From NCBI GenBank assembly GCA_022824735.1, contig JAJDZI010000025.1:1-48795 (forward strand): 48,795 bases of DNA, in the 5' to 3' direction. Shown here one piece after another: positions 1 through 36,364 of this stretch. The DNA comes from Nitrospirales bacterium (GTDB lineage Bacteria; Nitrospirota; Nitrospiria; Nitrospirales; UBA8639). The notes below the pieces were generated by a model. That model was given only the letters and a program-made list of their open reading frames with translations. It made no database searches and had not been told where the DNA came from. Positions within the stretch are counted from its first letter, which is position 1. Each line of letters begins with the position of its first letter. The translations under genes and the position numbers were made by a program.

Positions 1-378
1 GCCGGTGTATTCCGCGCGATAGATGAGGCCGGCATCATACAGTTGCTGCAGAAATCGTTGGACCACGGCCTGATGCCGGGCATCCGTGGTGCGAATGAAT
101 CCATCGTTGGAAATGGCGAGCTTCTCCCACAGGGCGCGAAATTGCGGGGTCAGCCGGTCGCAATGCTCCTGCGGCGAGATCCCGGCTTTGGCTGCGGCCT
201 GCTGGACTTTTTGCCCGTGTTCGTCCAGGCCCGTCAGAAAAAAGACCTCTTCTCTGGTCAGGCGGCGCCAGCGTGCCAGCACGTCCGCCGCAACGGTGGT
301 ATACGCATGCCCAATGTGCGGCACGTCGTTCACGTAGTAAATCGGCGTCGTGATATAGAAGCGGTCAGGCATGTCCAT
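1..378 (-). CDS. metG: methionyl-tRNA synthetase, N-terminal part (cut by window edge)
   Basis: Methionyl-tRNA synthetase charges tRNA-Met with methionine in the cytoplasm. Reverse translation gives MDMPDRFYITTPIYYVNDVP followed by the class I HIGH motif (HIGH, residues 21-24). The family motif FLTGLDEHGQKVQQAA follows. Only the first 126 codons lie in the window; the rest runs off the left edge. The ATG at 378 follows an in-frame TGA, and a second in-frame ATG lies at 372, so the start is one of these two. The gene begins 14 bases after the holB stop and is probably the last gene of a tmk-holB-metG operon. Confidence 0.93.
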   Translation of the reverse strand, partial: MDMPDRFYITTPIYYVNDVPHIGHAYTTVAADVLARWRRLTREEVFFLTGLDEHGQKVQQAAAKAGISPQEHCDRLTPQFRALWEKLAISNDGFIRTTDARHQAVVQRFLQQLYDAGLIYRAEYTG

Positions 379-25976: not shown

Positions 25977-26471
25977 ATGCACAAGGTGCTTCTATCCGTC
26001 CTTTTCAGTCTCATTCTGGTGGCAGCCGGTTCTTCAGTCGCCCTGGCCTTGCAATCCGGTGGCGCGATGGTCGGCGACCTTGAAACCGGGTCTATCGTTG
26101 GTCAACCCTTTACAAGCCTCGACGTCGATCTTGAGTACACGGCCTTGATGATCGGCGGAAAGAAAGTCTGGTATCCCGGAACCTCGATTCTCGACCTGAG
26201 AAATCAAGGCACAGGCGGTCGGAGAGGTCAACCCGTCCTGATCAAGGTCACCAATGCTTTGGATGGCGACCATGGGTTCAACCTGTCGGCCGATTCGGCT
26301 TTCGCCGGTCCCACCTCGTTGCAGGTCAAAATTGTGTTGAAAGCCGGGGAAACGAAGTATATCGGTGTTCCCATGAGCGATTTGACGTACGTCACCGCTT
26401 CCGGGAACTTGAAGGTGAAATGTCAGCTTCATGCTGCCCACCTCGGTTCCAACCTTGTGGTCTTGAAGTAA
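25977..26471 (+). CDS. small secreted cupredoxin-like protein
   Basis: 164 residues with a clear signal peptide (VLLSVLFSLILVAAGSSVALA). The mature part is a beta sandwich typical of cupredoxins. Likely copper ligands are H99 in GDHGFNL and the cluster C149-x2-H152-x2-H155 (KCQLHAAH). The usual plastocyanin/azurin pattern ends with Met; here no Met follows in the expected place, so the axial ligand may differ or be absent. It has its own promoter-like sequence, a strong ribosome binding site and a strong terminator, suggesting high single-gene expression. A periplasmic electron carrier is plausible; the partner is unknown. Confidence 0.75.
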   Translation: MHKVLLSVLFSLILVAAGSSVALALQSGGAMVGDLETGSIVGQPFTSLDVDLEYTALMIGGKKVWYPGTSILDLRNQGTGGRRGQPVLIKVTNALDGDHGFNLSADSAFAGPTSLQVKIVLKAGETKYIGVPMSDLTYVTASGNLKVKCQLHAAHLGSNLVVLK

Positions 26472-29278: not shown

Positions 29279-32200
29279 ATGTTTCATTTCAATTCTGTAT
29301 CCATGAAACGATTTGTTTTTCCGGCAGTGGGCAGTTTGTTGGCCGTGGCCTGCCTTGTGCTTCCTCTTGCCGGCGCTGAATCCGACGTGTCCGATTCAGC
29401 CGCAGTGATCCAAACTTCGGGGATGAATCACGAATCCCCTGCTTGGGCTGAACGCCTCAAAGGGCAGACCATTATCGAGAATGCCCAGGAGGGGAGAGCC
29501 GAGCGCGCCGCGCTCGTCGAAAAGCAGCATGAGCGGTTGATGCAGCAAATGCAGAAGGAAATGTCCGAATCCAACTCCGGCGGCTACAACACGATGTCCA
29601 CGATGCACCAATACGGTGCCGGCAAGGGTAACTACCTGTTGGCGTCCGACGGCGACATCGAGCCGGTCGCCATGGTGGGCGGCGGAAAATGCCCGGCCGC
29701 GGCTCCGGTGAAGCATTACGACGTTTCCGCGATCAACGTGGAAATCACGTTGAATCAATGGCTGGATTATTATCCCGGCTACATGTACGTGCTGACGGAA
29801 AACATCGAGAACGTTCGGGAAGAGGAAGCCAAGAACGCGGAAGCGCGCGAGGAAGAGGGACATCATAATCCCGGTGGGGTGAAGAACGGGATCCAGGGGC
29901 AGTACATCCAACCCCTGGTGATTCGCGGCAACCAGGGTGATTGCGTGAGAGTCACGCTCCGGAATCAATTGGAGTTCGGCGAGGACGTGAGCCTGCACAT
30001 CAACGGGTCGAGCATGGTGGTCAGCAAAACCGGCCAGCCCGCGACGACGACGAATCCTGATGCCATCGCCTATGGTCCGGATGAAGAATGCGAAGAGAAT
30101 TGTGAGACCACGCCTGTGGAGATGGAATGGTACATCCATCCTGATACCCAGGAAGGGGGACGGCAGTTCCACAGTTACAGCAATGATCGTGAGTTGACCG
30201 TGATGGGCCTGTTCGGAGTGTTCGTGGTCGAACCCGCGGGTTCGAACTACCTGGATCCCCTGGGAACGGGTCCGGCGACGGATATGCCGAGCGGCTGGCA
30301 AGCCATGATTCAGAACGGTATGGGTCCGGATTTCCGGGAATTCGTGTTGATTTATCATGAAGTGGGTGACGAAGCATTCCGTCCGGTGAACAAACACGGC
30401 GACTTCCTGCCGCAACGCGATCCGTTGACCGATGCGTACCGGCCGGGAGCACGGGCGTTGAATTACCGGAGCGAACCGTTCGGTATCAACAACATGCACG
30501 TGCAACATGAGTACTTCGGCTTTGAAGACGAATCCATGGCCTATAGTTCCTATACCTTCGGTGACGCCGGTCCTACGATCCCACGGAGCTATTTAGGTGA
30601 TCCTGCGAAGTACCGGCTGGTTCACGGCGGGTCCGAAGTCTTCCATTCCCACCATCCGCACGGCGGCGCCATCCGGTGGACCCGGAGCCCGCGGGCGGTT
30701 GATCAAATGCCGATGTGGCACAAGGGACAGAACGGGCCGGTGAAGTATCCGCTCATTCGCGCCAAGACGGACCGGGTGGACGTGGAAGTGATCGGGCCGT
30801 CTGAAGCGTTGGACCTGGAAACCGAGTGCGGATCGGGGCTGTGTCAATACCTGGCCGGTGACTTCCTGTTTCATTGTCACGTGGCGCACCATTACGTGGC
30901 CGGCATGTGGGGATATTGGCGCGTGTACAATACCTTGCAGGTGCCCGGCATCCAAAACGACGTGATGGCTCCGCTTCGTGAGTTGCCCGACAGGCAGGGG
31001 CGGATTGTCAGGCCGGTGACCTCCGATCAATTGGTGGGCACGACGGTGTCCTGGTTCGGGAAGAAATTCAACCTGGTCGATAATTCTCAAAAAACCGATT
31101 GGGAAGCCGACCCGGCTGTGGTTCGGATTTATGATTGGGTCGAAATGCAATTGCCGACCCGTGGTCTTCCCGGTCATACGGAAGACGAAATCGGCCAACT
31201 CAAGTCGTATGACGCGACCGTGGTCGATTGGACGTGGGACGGCGAGCGTGCGATGAGCGAGAAAGAAAGCACGACCGAGAATCCCAAATACCATCCGGAA
31301 TGGCAGGGCTACGAAGCCGGGAAACGCCGGCCCATCTGGTTCGAGCCGGTGACGGGGAAAGTCGCGTGGCCGTGGTTGACGCCTCACTTCGGCAAACGGG
31401 CGCCGTTCTCTCCGGACCGGAACCCGGCCCCGTGGTTGGAGATGATCCATCTGGATGAAGACGGTCAGCCGTCCGTGAAGCCGGCGAAACCGGGTGAAAA
31501 CGGGCGGTGGAGCCTGTGTCCGGACCGGGCGGGTTCTCAGGAGTACAACGTCCACTTTATCAAGCTCCCGATCGAGTTGTCCGCGGCGCAGGGCGATCAG
31601 CCGTCCGTGGTGGACCCGAACGGGTTGTTGTACGTGGTCCACGATGAAGAGGAAGCGATTCGGAACAATAATGATTTGAAGGTGCCGTTGGTCTTCCGCG
31701 CCAATATCTATGACTGCATGGATTGGATGTTGACCAGCGAATGGTTGGACGACGACTTTACGAATTTCCAATCGTCAAAGATCAACACGCACTTCCATTT
31801 CGTGCAGTTCGATAATCAGGCCTCGGATGGCGTGATTTCGGGATTTTCGTATGATCAATCCGTGCGCCCCTTTACCCAGTTCGAGAAGAAATCGGACAAG
31901 GGGTTGCCGGTGCCGATGAATGCCAAATTCACCAAGGCGGCCGGTAAGGGTGACCGGACGATTCACGTGACGAACGCCCAGCAGTACCACGTTGGTACGG
32001 TGCTTCTCGTGGGGGCGGACAACGTTGGAGGTTCTGAAGTGAAGCGTATCGTCGCCATCGGGAATTCCGGCGGGTCCGCGTCGGCTGGTAGCGCGGGCGG
32101 CGGCATGTACACGGTGAATCCCGGAGATACTCTCGGAGGCATTGCGATGCAGCATGGCACCGACGTGGCGACGTTGGTCAGCATGAACGGGTTGGCGAAT

Positions 32201-34417
32201 GCCAACGTGCTGAGCGTCGGGCAGGAATTACAAGTGCCCGGTGACGGCGGCGGTGAAGCCGCGGCGCCGAGTGGCGCGCAGACGCTGACGTTCAAGACCC
32301 CGTTGGAGCATGATCACCCGGTCGGGGACATCGTGACCGTGGAATTCGTGCGGCAACGTTTCTGGGCGGATGCCGACGTGGGGTCCGTGTTCTGTCATGA
32401 CCACGCGTTCGGCGGGACCACGTGGCCGCATGGCGCGGTGTGTTCGTTCCTGATCGAGCCGTTCGGATCGACCTGGCATGATCCGGCGACCGGCGAGGCC
32501 AAGCGGACCGGTCCGGTGATGGATATTCACACGGTGGAGCCCGTGGGCTATGGAGTCAGCGGCAGCTTCCGTGAGTTGATGGTTCAAATCATGGATACGG
32601 TTCCTCATACGGTCAACGTGGTGACGGCCGGGAATCCTCCCGGTCAACCCGTGGAAGTGGCGTTGGAAGCCGGGCGAACCGTGTCCTTCCAAATGCCGCC
32701 GAACGACAAAATCAAGATGACGCCGATGCCGTTCCTTAACGGCGGGACGCATACCACGGGCGGTGCCCTGAATTTCCGGGCCGAACCCTTTGCTCAACGG
32801 TTGGCCAACAACCCGGAAACCTCGCAGTTGTTCAGCAGCGGCACGCACGGGGATCCGAGTACGGTCACGTTGCGGGCCTACCTGGGTGACGCTCTTGTTT
32901 TCCGGCTCATCGACGTGACGATGAACGAGAGTAACGTGTTTACCGTGTCCGGTCACAACTTCCTGACCGAACGGTACGCCGGCGACGCCAACCGGAAAAA
33001 CTCCATTCACATCGGTATTGCGGAACGGTACGACCTGGTGGTGCCGCAGGCCGGTGGGACGAGACTCCAGGCTGGCGATTACATGTATTTCAACGGCCGG
33101 AGTTCGAAGTTGTCCGAGGGCTCGTGGGGATTGATCCGGGTCCTGGATGAAGAAGTACCGGACTTGAAACCGTTGCCGAATGCGGCCTACGGCGGACCGG
33201 GCATCAAGAAGACGTTGCCGGTGTGTCCGGCCGATGCCCCGGTGAAGAATTTCAACGTCGTGGCGATTGATTATCCGCAGATGGCGTTCAATCCCAACGT
33301 GGAAGAAGCCATTGAGGTGGACTTTGAACGGACGATCGAAGTGAAGAACCCGGATGCCAAGATCTACGTCCTGGAAGAGGAAGTGGCCAAGGTCTCCGGA
33401 GAATTCCAGCCCATGCCGCTGACCTTGCGGGCCAACGTGGGCGATTGTCTCAAGGTGAAACTGACCAACAAGATGAAAGAGGGCCGGGCTTCATTCTCGG
33501 CGTTCTCCCTGGCGTTTGACCCCAAGGATTCTCAAGGGGTGAACCTGGGCAACAATCCTGGTGATCAAACCGTGGCTCCCGGAGAAAGCCGGACCTATAC
33601 CTATTATGCGGACCCGGCCGTTGGGGAAACGCAATCCCTGGTGTGGGATTGGGGCAACGTGGCCATGAACCCGCGGAACGGGTTGTTCGGCGGAATCGTG
33701 ATCGGGCCCGAGGGCTCCCAGTATCGCGATCCGAAGACCGGGGCCGACATTTCCGAGAAGAACAGTTGGGCCGCCGACGTGATTGTCGACCGGACGGTTC
33801 CCGGAAATGAGCACCGGGCCAATTATCGTGACGTGGCCCTGTATTTCCAGGATGAAGACAACATTATCGGCACCAGCTTTATGCCGTACGTTCAAAACGT
33901 GGCCGGATTGGTTGGCGTCAATTACCGGAACGAACCGTACCTGTATCGTGAAGAACAGGGGTGCTCGTTAGGCCGGATGTTCCAACCCTGTAACGTCGAT
34001 GAACCGAATGAACCGGCCACGCCGATTATCGAGGCTCATGCAGGCGACCCGGTCAGGATTCACGTGTTCGGGGCCAGCAATGAGCAGAACGGTATGTTCA
34101 CGCTGGAAAAACATGAATGGCCCATTGAGCCGTTCATGGACGGGGCCGATCGCATCAGCGTTGTGGAATTTTCCGGGTCCGAAGGGATCGACGCGTTTAT
34201 TTCTTCGGCTGGTGGCCCGTATTCCATGCCCGGCGATTACGTGTACAGCAATGCGCGTTTGCCGTATTCCCAGTCCGGGCAATGGGGGTATTTCCGCGTG
34301 CTGTCCAAGAATGATCAAAGAATCCTTCCGCTCAGCGGGGCTTCCCCAGGAGTCAAGGAAGCCAAGGAGGGTGAACCTGAACAAGGTAGCGTTCGACCGA
34401 TCTCCTTCAAGCAATAA
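29279..34417 (+). CDS. giant six-cupredoxin multicopper oxidase with nested LysM domain
   Basis: 1712 residues with a signal peptide (cleavage near A33), so exported. Three repeated two-cupredoxin units can be aligned by eye: (1) from C138, (2) from about 780, (3) from C1316. Each first domain ends in a GxFxxxxxEPxGSxxxDP-like strand. Copper motifs are H456-x-H458-H459-x-H461, then H532-C533-H534-x3-H538-x4-M543 (a complete type 1/type 3 motif) in unit 1. H838-x-H840 and C1039-H1040-D1041-H1042 follow in unit 2. Unit 3 lacks them. Between about 870 and 1015 a small beta domain is inserted, itself interrupted by a LysM domain (943-988) in Gly/Ser/Ala linkers. Six-domain architecture is known from ceruloplasmin and bacterial MnxG-type Mn oxidases; the substrate here is unproven. 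AAGGAGG fixes the start. Confidence 0.9.
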   Translation: MFHFNSVSMKRFVFPAVGSLLAVACLVLPLAGAESDVSDSAAVIQTSGMNHESPAWAERLKGQTIIENAQEGRAERAALVEKQHERLMQQMQKEMSESNSGGYNTMSTMHQYGAGKGNYLLASDGDIEPVAMVGGGKCPAAAPVKHYDVSAINVEITLNQWLDYYPGYMYVLTENIENVREEEAKNAEAREEEGHHNPGGVKNGIQGQYIQPLVIRGNQGDCVRVTLRNQLEFGEDVSLHINGSSMVVSKTGQPATTTNPDAIAYGPDEECEENCETTPVEMEWYIHPDTQEGGRQFHSYSNDRELTVMGLFGVFVVEPAGSNYLDPLGTGPATDMPSGWQAMIQNGMGPDFREFVLIYHEVGDEAFRPVNKHGDFLPQRDPLTDAYRPGARALNYRSEPFGINNMHVQHEYFGFEDESMAYSSYTFGDAGPTIPRSYLGDPAKYRLVHGGSEVFHSHHPHGGAIRWTRSPRAVDQMPMWHKGQNGPVKYPLIRAKTDRVDVEVIGPSEALDLETECGSGLCQYLAGDFLFHCHVAHHYVAGMWGYWRVYNTLQVPGIQNDVMAPLRELPDRQGRIVRPVTSDQLVGTTVSWFGKKFNLVDNSQKTDWEADPAVVRIYDWVEMQLPTRGLPGHTEDEIGQLKSYDATVVDWTWDGERAMSEKESTTENPKYHPEWQGYEAGKRRPIWFEPVTGKVAWPWLTPHFGKRAPFSPDRNPAPWLEMIHLDEDGQPSVKPAKPGENGRWSLCPDRAGSQEYNVHFIKLPIELSAAQGDQPSVVDPNGLLYVVHDEEEAIRNNNDLKVPLVFRANIYDCMDWMLTSEWLDDDFTNFQSSKINTHFHFVQFDNQASDGVISGFSYDQSVRPFTQFEKKSDKGLPVPMNAKFTKAAGKGDRTIHVTNAQQYHVGTVLLVGADNVGGSEVKRIVAIGNSGGSASAGSAGGGMYTVNPGDTLGGIAMQHGTDVATLVSMNGLANANVLSVGQELQVPGDGGGEAAAPSGAQTLTFKTPLEHDHPVGDIVTVEFVRQRFWADADVGSVFCHDHAFGGTTWPHGAVCSFLIEPFGSTWHDPATGEAKRTGPVMDIHTVEPVGYGVSGSFRELMVQIMDTVPHTVNVVTAGNPPGQPVEVALEAGRTVSFQMPPNDKIKMTPMPFLNGGTHTTGGALNFRAEPFAQRLANNPETSQLFSSGTHGDPSTVTLRAYLGDALVFRLIDVTMNESNVFTVSGHNFLTERYAGDANRKNSIHIGIAERYDLVVPQAGGTRLQAGDYMYFNGRSSKLSEGSWGLIRVLDEEVPDLKPLPNAAYGGPGIKKTLPVCPADAPVKNFNVVAIDYPQMAFNPNVEEAIEVDFERTIEVKNPDAKIYVLEEEVAKVSGEFQPMPLTLRANVGDCLKVKLTNKMKEGRASFSAFSLAFDPKDSQGVNLGNNPGDQTVAPGESRTYTYYADPAVGETQSLVWDWGNVAMNPRNGLFGGIVIGPEGSQYRDPKTGADISEKNSWAADVIVDRTVPGNEHRANYRDVALYFQDEDNIIGTSFMPYVQNVAGLVGVNYRNEPYLYREEQGCSLGRMFQPCNVDEPNEPATPIIEAHAGDPVRIHVFGASNEQNGMFTLEKHEWPIEPFMDGADRISVVEFSGSEGIDAFISSAGGPYSMPGDYVYSNARLPYSQSGQWGYFRVLSKNDQRILPLSGASPGVKEAKEGEPEQGSVRPISFKQ

Positions 34418-34528: not shown

Positions 34529-35440
34529 ATGGCAGTGCGGACGTGGACGTTGTGCCTGGTCCTGGGGTTGTTCGTGTCTTCGGGATGGGCCTATGAGGAA
34601 ATATCGGTCACAAACGGGGGGACCATCAAGGGTCACGTGACGATCACCGGTGACACCCCGAGACCCATGGCTTTCAACCTGGTGACGATCCCGGACGCGG
34701 TGTATTGCGGTCGCATTTCTACGGGCACGGGTTGGCGGATCGTGGAAGATTTCATTATCGGGGAGGACGGCAGCCTCAAAGACGCGGTCGTGATGCTCAA
34801 CGGGATCGAACAGGGGAAGCGGTTCGAGGTGCCCAAGGTCTTGATCGAAGCCATGGATTGTGATTTCCTGCCGTTCGTGAACGTGTTGCGCGACCAGGAT
34901 GAAATCACGGTCATCAACATGGACCCCGTTGAACACGATATCCAGGGGTACGAAACCGCCAGGGTGCGGGGCGCGAGGGTCCTGTTCAATCGACCGTTGC
35001 CCATGAATGCGTTTCACAAGGTGCTGGGTATGTTGCACAGTCATGAGCATTTGCCGGGCAAGCCCATGATTCAAAAAGTGCACCTGAGGAAAGGCCGCAA
35101 CATTTTCGTCATGCAATGCGGGTTTCATCCCTACATGTTTTCCTGGGGCGTGGTGGTCAAAAATCCCTATTACGCCATTACCAGGGAAGACGGACGGTTC
35201 GAACTCACGGATGTGCCTCCGGGCGACTATACGTTGACGGTCTGGCACGCGGGTATGAAAAAATACCTGGACCGGACCATTACCGTCCCCGCCGACGGCA
35301 CGGTCACGCAGGACTTCCAATATGCAGCCGTGAAGGGACGAAGAAGCGTGCATGAAATGCAGGACAATCCTCACTTCGGCTTGGAGTTGCTTGGGGAGGG
35401 CGTGGAAATCATTCCGTCGGTCAGGCTGCAGAATCCCTGA
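34529..35440 (+). CDS. secreted type-1-copper / carboxypeptidase regulatory-like protein, copy 1
   Basis: 303 residues with a signal peptide (TLCLVLGLFVSSGWA). A cupredoxin-like core carries a full type 1 copper pattern: H136 (EHDIQGYE), then C197-x2-H200-x2-M203 (MQCGFHPYM). A carboxypeptidase regulatory-like domain follows (residues about 213-275; ITREDGRFELTDVPPGDYTL). Two further Cys (C60, C111) are conserved in the next gene and may form a disulfide. A very strong AAAGGAGGGG precedes the ATG. It is the first of a run of five same-strand genes; the oxidase terminator upstream suggests its own transcription start. Probably a periplasmic copper electron carrier. Confidence 0.82.
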   Translation: MAVRTWTLCLVLGLFVSSGWAYEEISVTNGGTIKGHVTITGDTPRPMAFNLVTIPDAVYCGRISTGTGWRIVEDFIIGEDGSLKDAVVMLNGIEQGKRFEVPKVLIEAMDCDFLPFVNVLRDQDEITVINMDPVEHDIQGYETARVRGARVLFNRPLPMNAFHKVLGMLHSHEHLPGKPMIQKVHLRKGRNIFVMQCGFHPYMFSWGVVVKNPYYAITREDGRFELTDVPPGDYTLTVWHAGMKKYLDRTITVPADGTVTQDFQYAAVKGRRSVHEMQDNPHFGLELLGEGVEIIPSVRLQNP

Positions 35441-35455
35441 CGTTTCGGAGGGTTG

Positions 35456-36364
35456 ATGAAGGCTTTGCTGATCACCGGCTTGTGCGTGATCCTTTTGATT
35501 CCGGCTTCCTCTCTTTGGGGGTATGACGTCAAGGAGGTTGCCGGCGGCGGAACGGTTCAGGGGACGGTTGCCCTTTCGGGACCGGTGCCGGACCCGAAGG
35601 CGTACAACCTGGTCATTTTTCCTGACCCCGAATATTGCGGGCGGATCTCCAACGGAAACGGATGGCGCCTCCTTCGTGATTTTCTCGTGAACGAACAGGG
35701 CCAGGTCCTGAACGTCGTCGTGTTGTTGGAAGGCGTGACGGAGGGTAAACCGTTTTCTCTTTCCGTGCCAAGAGTCGAAGCGCGGGATTGTCGATTTTTA
35801 CCCTTCACGACCGTCGTGCGAAGCGGGCATGGGATCGAAGTGGTGAACATGGATCCCGTGATGCATGACATTCAGGCCTACGAGACCTCGGCCGCCATGG
35901 GGACCCGGGTGTTGTTCAATTCCCCGCTGCCCTTCAATCGCCGGCATCACCGGGGCGACCTGCATGCGACCCATGACCATCGGCCCGGAGAGTCGTTGGT
36001 CCGGCAATTCCAGTTGAGTAAAAAACGCCGGACGTTCGTCATGCAATGCGGGTTTCACGCGTACATGGAAAGCTGGGCCATTGCGGTGGACAATCCCTAC
36101 TACGTGCTGACCGATGAGAACGGACAATTTTCCATCGAAAACGTGCCGCCCGGGACGTATGACCTTCGGGCGTGGCATCCCGGCATCAAGCAGGTCATGA
36201 AGAAGCCGGTGACCATCGAACCGGGCGCGAACCTGACCATTGATTTCCAATTGCCTTCGCCGGGACGACGAAAGACCGCGCTCACGGTTCGGACGCCTCC
36301 CCGGTTCACTCCCGCGGCGTTGGGCCGGGAATTCACGATCGAACCTCTTCTCGAGCGCCAGTAA
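35456..36364 (+). CDS. secreted type-1-copper / carboxypeptidase regulatory-like protein, copy 2
   Basis: 302 residues, a tandem paralogue of the preceding gene over its full length. Signal peptide LLITGLCVILLIPASSLWG. Copper ligands are kept: H137 (MHDIQAYE) and C198-x2-H201-x2-M204 (MQCGFHAYM). The paired Cys (C61, C112) and the C-terminal regulatory-like domain (ENGQFSIENVPPGTYDLRAW) are also kept. A His-rich stretch at 164-175 (HHRGDLHATHDH) is richer in His than in copy 1 and might bind metal. It starts 15 bases after copy 1 with GGAGG upstream of the ATG. Confidence 0.82.
   Translation: MKALLITGLCVILLIPASSLWGYDVKEVAGGGTVQGTVALSGPVPDPKAYNLVIFPDPEYCGRISNGNGWRLLRDFLVNEQGQVLNVVVLLEGVTEGKPFSLSVPRVEARDCRFLPFTTVVRSGHGIEVVNMDPVMHDIQAYETSAAMGTRVLFNSPLPFNRRHHRGDLHATHDHRPGESLVRQFQLSKKRRTFVMQCGFHAYMESWAIAVDNPYYVLTDENGQFSIENVPPGTYDLRAWHPGIKQVMKKPVTIEPGANLTIDFQLPSPGRRKTALTVRTPPRFTPAALGREFTIEPLLERQ

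Follow-up and report, generated by a model that had tools for sequence, protein, structure and literature searches.

A LysM domain nested in the beta module of an MnxG-like multicopper oxidase of lineage IV Nitrospirales

The oxidase gene and its copper sites

The window, i.e. the whole stretch of 48,795 nucleotides that was analysed, is one contig of a 2.3-Mb genome, and the relatives to which it was compared are Nitrospirales. An earlier note, made from the sequence alone, had described at positions 29279-34417 an oxidase of three two-cupredoxin units with a LysM domain nested inside an inserted beta domain. The 1712-residue reading frame is real, with orthologues in the same genus that are 94-97% identical. 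An assembly artefact was ruled out by the 31 genomes that carry the gene in this form, two of them single-contig (G010, G011). A scan for promoters and terminators gave signals near chance. The gene and its main parts are the following:

29279..34417, + strand: six-domain MnxG-like multicopper oxidase with nested LysM, 1712 aa (reading frame, MnxG homology, Cu-oxidase_3 and Cu-oxidase_2 Pfam hits)
29279..29374, + strand: likely Sec signal peptide, residues 1-32 (...MKRFVFPAVGSLLAVACLVLPLAGA/ES; read from the sequence, hydrophobic stretch kept in homologues)
29699..30958, + strand: unit 1, cupredoxin domains 1-2, residues ~141-560 (phmmer: 208-572 versus MnxG 51-377)
31541..32608, + strand: cupredoxin domain 3 including inserts, residues ~755-1110 (753-864 versus MnxG 444-555; next strand and HDH motif versus MnxG 557-615)
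33224..34348, + strand: unit 3, cupredoxin domains 5-6, residues ~1316-1690 (1405-1684 versus MnxG 928-1212)

A Pfam search returned a complete LysM domain together with Cu-oxidase_3 and Cu-oxidase_2 domains. The closest solved structure is MnxG, the six-domain Mn(II) oxidase of Bacillus (PDB 9bxa, E 8e-72), with which residues 208-1684 align in order in phmmer. MnxG is also the top NCBIfam model (NF041487), which the oxidase matches with 109.6 bits compared to an equivalog cut-off of 3100. The predicted number of six cupredoxin domains is taken from this full-length collinearity and from the literature on six-domain proteins, while the whole structure models have a pLDDT of only 37. Anchoring as a lipoprotein was also considered, but the candidate residue Cys25 varies among homologues, such that the oxidase is probably no lipoprotein.

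The candidate copper ligands, whose individual roles were assigned from the general multicopper oxidase pattern, are found at four places, the last of which is accompanied by a cysteine pair:

30644..30661, + strand: HSHHPH, residues 456-461, type-1 and trinuclear-site histidines of domain 2 (invariant in all covering homologues)
30872..30907, + strand: HCHVAHHYVAGM, residues 532-543, trinuclear histidines and type-1 Cys533, His538 and Met543 (His/Cys positions invariant)
31790..31798, + strand: HFH, residues 838-840, first trinuclear-site pair of domain 3 (invariant)
32396..32404, + strand: HDH, residues 1040-1042, second trinuclear-site pair of domain 3 (invariant)
32393..32443, + strand: Cys1039 and Cys1055, cysteine pair beside HDH (26 of 27 LysM forms)

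The type-1 ligands and the eight trinuclear histidines do not vary among the homologues that extend over them. A motif scan of domains 4-6 detected no copper-ligand motif of this kind, and an HxH scan of unit 3 gave zero HxH copper motifs. As judged from these motifs the oxidase holds one complete ligand set, a type-1 site in domain 2 and a trinuclear centre between domains 2 and 3, which would provide one oxidase centre and not three, despite the three two-domain units. MnxG carries its type-1 and trinuclear motifs in the same domains. The same ligand placement characterizes the prokaryotic six-domain multicopper oxidases in PMC3600357, where all bacterial six-domain oxidases analysed have type-1 ligands in domain 2 only and the trinuclear centre between domains 2 and 3.

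Cys1039 (32393-32395) and Cys1055 (32441-32443) replace a Trp and a Gly of most paralogues and occur also in the homologues L062, L063, L097 and L098. They possibly form a disulfide next to the copper centre.

A LysM domain within a beta module of domain 3

Domain 3 contains two nested inserts, which follow each other along the sequence as listed here:

31910..32065, + strand: small beta module, first part, residues ~878-929 (all aligned family members; locally confident in both models; one module by VIA-align)
32066..32107, + strand: Gly/Ser/Ala-rich linker 1 (G, S, A, T and P make up 89% over 27 homologues, length 10-18; low pLDDT)
32108..32239, + strand: LysM domain, residues 944-987 (PF01476; fold match to 4xcm; invariant core)
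32240..32281, + strand: Gly/Ala/Ser/Pro-rich linker 2 (composition across homologues)
32282..32347, + strand: small beta module, second part, residues ~1002-1023 (homologue alignment, model, VIA-align)

The LysM domain, previously placed at residues 943-988, was found as a complete PF01476 domain at residues 944-987 (E 1.2e-13, 51.2 bits versus a gathering threshold of 20.9, profile positions 1-43 of 43). The beta module (MNAKFTKAA...RIVAI / TLTF...HDHPVGDIV) is present in every member of an alignment of 46 homologues. In LysM-free homologues a turn of only 2-4 residues connects its halves (RIVKI-xG-NTLTF), while LysM members have about 65-85 residues in place of the turn; here LysM and linkers span residues ~929-1001. 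In MnxG (9bxa), in contrast, the module is absent and the flanking cupredoxin strands are joined directly, residue 555 to 557-559. MnxG lacks the LysM domain as well and is shorter by about 490 residues. From MnxG without the module and the LysM-free homologues with a short turn follows a series of a plain cupredoxin, a cupredoxin with the module, and a cupredoxin with LysM inside the module. The nested layout that had been proposed, a beta domain inserted into a cupredoxin of unit 2 and LysM inserted into that domain through Gly/Ser/Ala-rich linkers, is thus borne out. Of the limits originally given for the beta domain (870-940 and 1000-1020) the two flanking parts stand, while their borders shift slightly to ~878-929 and 1002-1023. 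Along the chain, the whole insert is flanked by the HFH and HDH pairs, the contribution of domain 3 to the trinuclear centre.

Structure models were obtained from two AlphaFold jobs covering residues 141-1335 and 741-1712, for each of which only 25-27 close sequences were available. Both models are poor overall (pLDDT 37), and because of this global quality we read no packing, active-site distance or domain count from them. Locally the module and LysM reach a pLDDT of about 50-83 in both models, with low-confidence linkers on either side. When the modelled residues 878-1023 (model positions 138..283) were compared to known structures using VIA-align, they were matched as one module, with Z up to 11.5 (9n71) and 10.0 (7w1c) against single beta modules. 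Only ~78 of the 146 positions were aligned, so that LysM is stepped over and the flanks appear as one module. The models therefore agree locally with LysM being a loop insertion in a single domain, the remainder of the model being unusable. For the 741-1712 model Foldseek returned MnxG first (E 2.7e-8, 21% identity). The LysM part alone matches 4xcm_A in VIA-align (Z 9.4, rmsd 0.6 A over 45 residues) and the Thermus LysM 4uz3 in Foldseek (TM 0.92 of the target, rmsd 0.6), and its predicted order strand-helix-helix-strand is that of the beta-alpha-alpha-beta LysM fold.

The ends of a LysM domain lie close together in its fold, and for this reason it fits into a hairpin. The beta module itself has no real Pfam match. 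Its structural matches, phage tail and tailspike modules and EF-Tu-like barrels, have only the fold in common with it.

The LysM domain is under purifying selection. Within the genus its dN/dS is 0.105. The two linkers have values of 0.14 and 0.25, and the oxidase core, which evolves more slowly than LysM, one of ~0.04. Twelve core positions (Y944, V946, G949, D950, L952, I955, A956, G960, L966, N970, G981 and L984) are invariant in 27 of 27 homologues. Of the linkers the composition alone is kept (83-89% G, S, A, T and P), at lengths of 8 to 18 residues. Low dN/dS, invariant core and freely varying linkers together indicate that LysM is maintained as a folded domain with a probable binding function and the linkers as flexible tethers.

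Distribution, locus and history of the LysM form

Almost every Nitrospirales genome examined has the oxidase, and it extends to other orders of the class Nitrospiria. The complete stretch of module plus LysM was found in 31 genomes from ten genera of one family (taken to be UBA8639, "lineage IV" Nitrospirales), and it is therefore no oddity of one genome. Among 270 genomes of the class, none outside the UBA8639 family carries the LysM form; there, among the matches listed, similarity in the oxidase is confined to the LysM-free part of the module. A pattern-based scan of genome contigs returned close relatives only. The search for the same nested order thus yielded a single family within a scope that was mainly Nitrospirota. 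Scans of class and phylum and a literature search revealed no LysM inside another multicopper oxidase, in agreement with the earlier impression that the layout is not a standard one. The carriers are nitrite oxidisers, many of which come from sponges and the sea. According to PMC12342949, lineage IVb genomes come mostly from sponges, while members of the lineage IV family live in many habitats. Three records titled Nitrospinota or Nitrosomonas (L033, L047, L054) have typical Nitrospirales oxidase loci and are probably mislabelled or mixed metagenome bins.

Wherever the flank suffices, the LysM form lies at one locus. Upstream are a Rieske protein and an ilvE-like gene; downstream follow a tandem CarboxypepD_reg-like pair, a 220-aa exported protein, a HEAT-repeat protein and a DUF255 protein. 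The tandem pair in the window is:

34529..35440, + strand: conserved neighbour, exported, with CarboxypepD_reg-like end and Cys-x2-His-x2-Met motif (CGFHPYM)
35453..36364, + strand: tandem paralogue of the preceding gene, 44% identity

The CGFHxYM motif of this pair of 303-aa proteins (34529-36364) resembles a copper site, and homologues of the pair adjoin the oxidase in much of the class. Upstream of the oxidase, a conserved stretch at 25977-26471 encodes a 164-aa exported protein that has no Pfam match and shows cupredoxin-like features (KCQLHAAH).

LysM-free paralogues lie mostly at other loci, and LysM is a family-level addition to one paralogue. In five genomes, including the source genome, the LysM form is the sole oxidase copy (G000, G006, G010, G011, G013). 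LysM is nevertheless dispensable, since relatives have LysM-free copies at the same locus (L062, L063 and probably L051). L062 and L063 have a turn that slightly exceeds the usual length, together with the Cys1039/Cys1055 pair that is characteristic of LysM forms, and are therefore read as cases of LysM loss. In trees built without the LysM columns the LysM forms do not group as a single clade, and a minimum of four changes is required. Instead of one clean gain, the history may have comprised a gain with later losses and sequence exchange among paralogues, or several gains.

Several further loci depart from the usual pattern. Four genomes (G037, G030, G021 and G028; L091-L094) have a distant LysM-free oxidase of 67-68% identity at the ilvE locus, as if the gene had been replaced there. 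In G025 (L027/L040) a LysM form at the ilvE locus has the body sequence and the Trp/Gly signature of LysM-free paralogues, which, judged by these residues, suggests exchange between paralogues. In G004 (L030/L061) a LysM-type gene is broken by an in-frame TGA, followed by the contig end.

Proposed role and alternative readings

The signal-peptide-like start suggests that the oxidase is exported to the periplasm. There, LysM would be looped out on its flexible linkers from the beta module of domain 3, bind peptidoglycan and thereby hold the enzyme. LysM domains bind peptidoglycan or chitin-type glycans, usually weakly when the domain occurs singly. Apart from the oxidase gene, strong LysM matches in the genome are confined to an MltD-like transglycosylase that has three LysM domains and to a small protein that is lipobox-like at its start, which makes peptidoglycan the likely ligand in this cell. 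A peptidoglycan tether is the most likely role that the sequence evidence assigns to LysM. We consider it fairly probable that the protein as a whole is an exported oxidase of the MnxG kind with one copper centre that is tethered to periplasmic peptidoglycan and probably oxidises a metal ion. The oxidation would probably proceed with O2, Mn(II) being the leading guess for the ion.

PMC3578206 describes a periplasmic multicopper oxidase, similar to that of the Bacillus strain SG-1, as conserved in Nitrospina and Nitrospira defluvii, and proposes for the related oxidase in Nitrospina and Nitrospira that it makes Mn(III) or Mn(IV) and defends against ROS. Compared by description, our oxidase fits this protein in being SG-1-similar and conserved in Nitrospira; it differs by its LysM, of which the passages on that protein make no mention. 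No evidence for Mn(II) oxidation by any Nitrospira with such an oxidase was found, and three papers on cultured Nitrospira (PMC8115632, PMC10579370, PMC9381531) do not mention the oxidase. A tethered enzyme that serves copper or iron handling, by oxidation of Cu(I) or Fe(II), or ROS defence instead of Mn(II) oxidation has a serious though not quite even chance; it concerns the substrate only and is compatible with the tether. Ferroxidases are known among the six-domain oxidases (PMC3600357), a possible copper site is present in the adjacent tandem pair, and PMC3578206 proposes ROS defence for the family. The nearest solved relative is, on the other hand, a Mn oxidase, although an identity of 21% is too low for homology to fix the substrate.

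Alternatively, the oxidase could act beyond the outer membrane, with LysM binding GlcNAc-containing glycans, either in the matrix of the cell itself or on a host, for example a sponge. The affinity of LysM for chitin-type glycans, the chitin-binding LysM structures among the matches, the sponge origin of most lineage IVb genomes (PMC12342949) and the LysM form as sole copy in several genomes of the genus would fit such a role. However, the LysM form occurs in nine other genera of the family, which has members from many habitats (PMC12342949), and is therefore not host-tied, only an ordinary signal peptide is seen, and PMC3578206 puts the oxidase family in the periplasm. We thus regard an external glycan as unlikely.

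Somewhat more doubtful still is the reading that LysM came by copying into a hairpin that tolerates it and is now a passenger with no binding role. The permissive turn, the flexible linkers, the evolution of LysM being faster than that of the core and its apparent loss on at least one occasion (L062, L063) would be expected for a passenger, but the core kept in 27 of 27 homologues across the family while the linkers vary freely, the dN/dS of 0.105 and the retention of the LysM copy in the five single-copy genomes speak against it. That glycan binding could alter O2 reduction at the copper centre, giving an oxidase responsive to the state of the wall, is conceivable because the host module lies between the trinuclear ligand pairs of domain 3, but very improbable.

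Several elements of the nested oxidase are known: the oxidase family, widespread in Nitrospiria and already in the literature, the LysM domain, and LysM nested in a beta domain. The latter is found in CVNH-LysM (type III cyanovirin) lectins such as Magnaporthe MoCVNH-LysM (2l9y), where LysM is a guest in a beta domain (PMC4926178). The host there is, however, a fungal lectin and no enzyme, and the host proteins are unrelated. MltD-type transglycosylases and other LysM peptidoglycan enzymes share the LysM fold (8rhf, Z 8.4), but the MltD-type transglycosylase of this genome has its LysM domains in tandem at the C-terminal end, outside the catalytic domain. For LysM within a multicopper oxidase no description was found in the literature searched. 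New is therefore a nested LysM multicopper oxidase throughout a lineage; with limited searches outside Nitrospirota we do not claim that it is exclusive to this phylum.

The findings suggest that nitrifiers of ecological importance keep a large redox enzyme attached to the wall, and this attachment would determine the place of its oxidation reaction. Within one enzyme, MnxG without module, Nitrospiria oxidases with the module and a short turn, and lineage IV oxidases with LysM inside it form a clear series of nested insertions. The lineage IV oxidase is a natural design in which a binding domain sits inside an enzyme and not at its end, and the LysM-free orthologues at the same locus provide ready controls for it.
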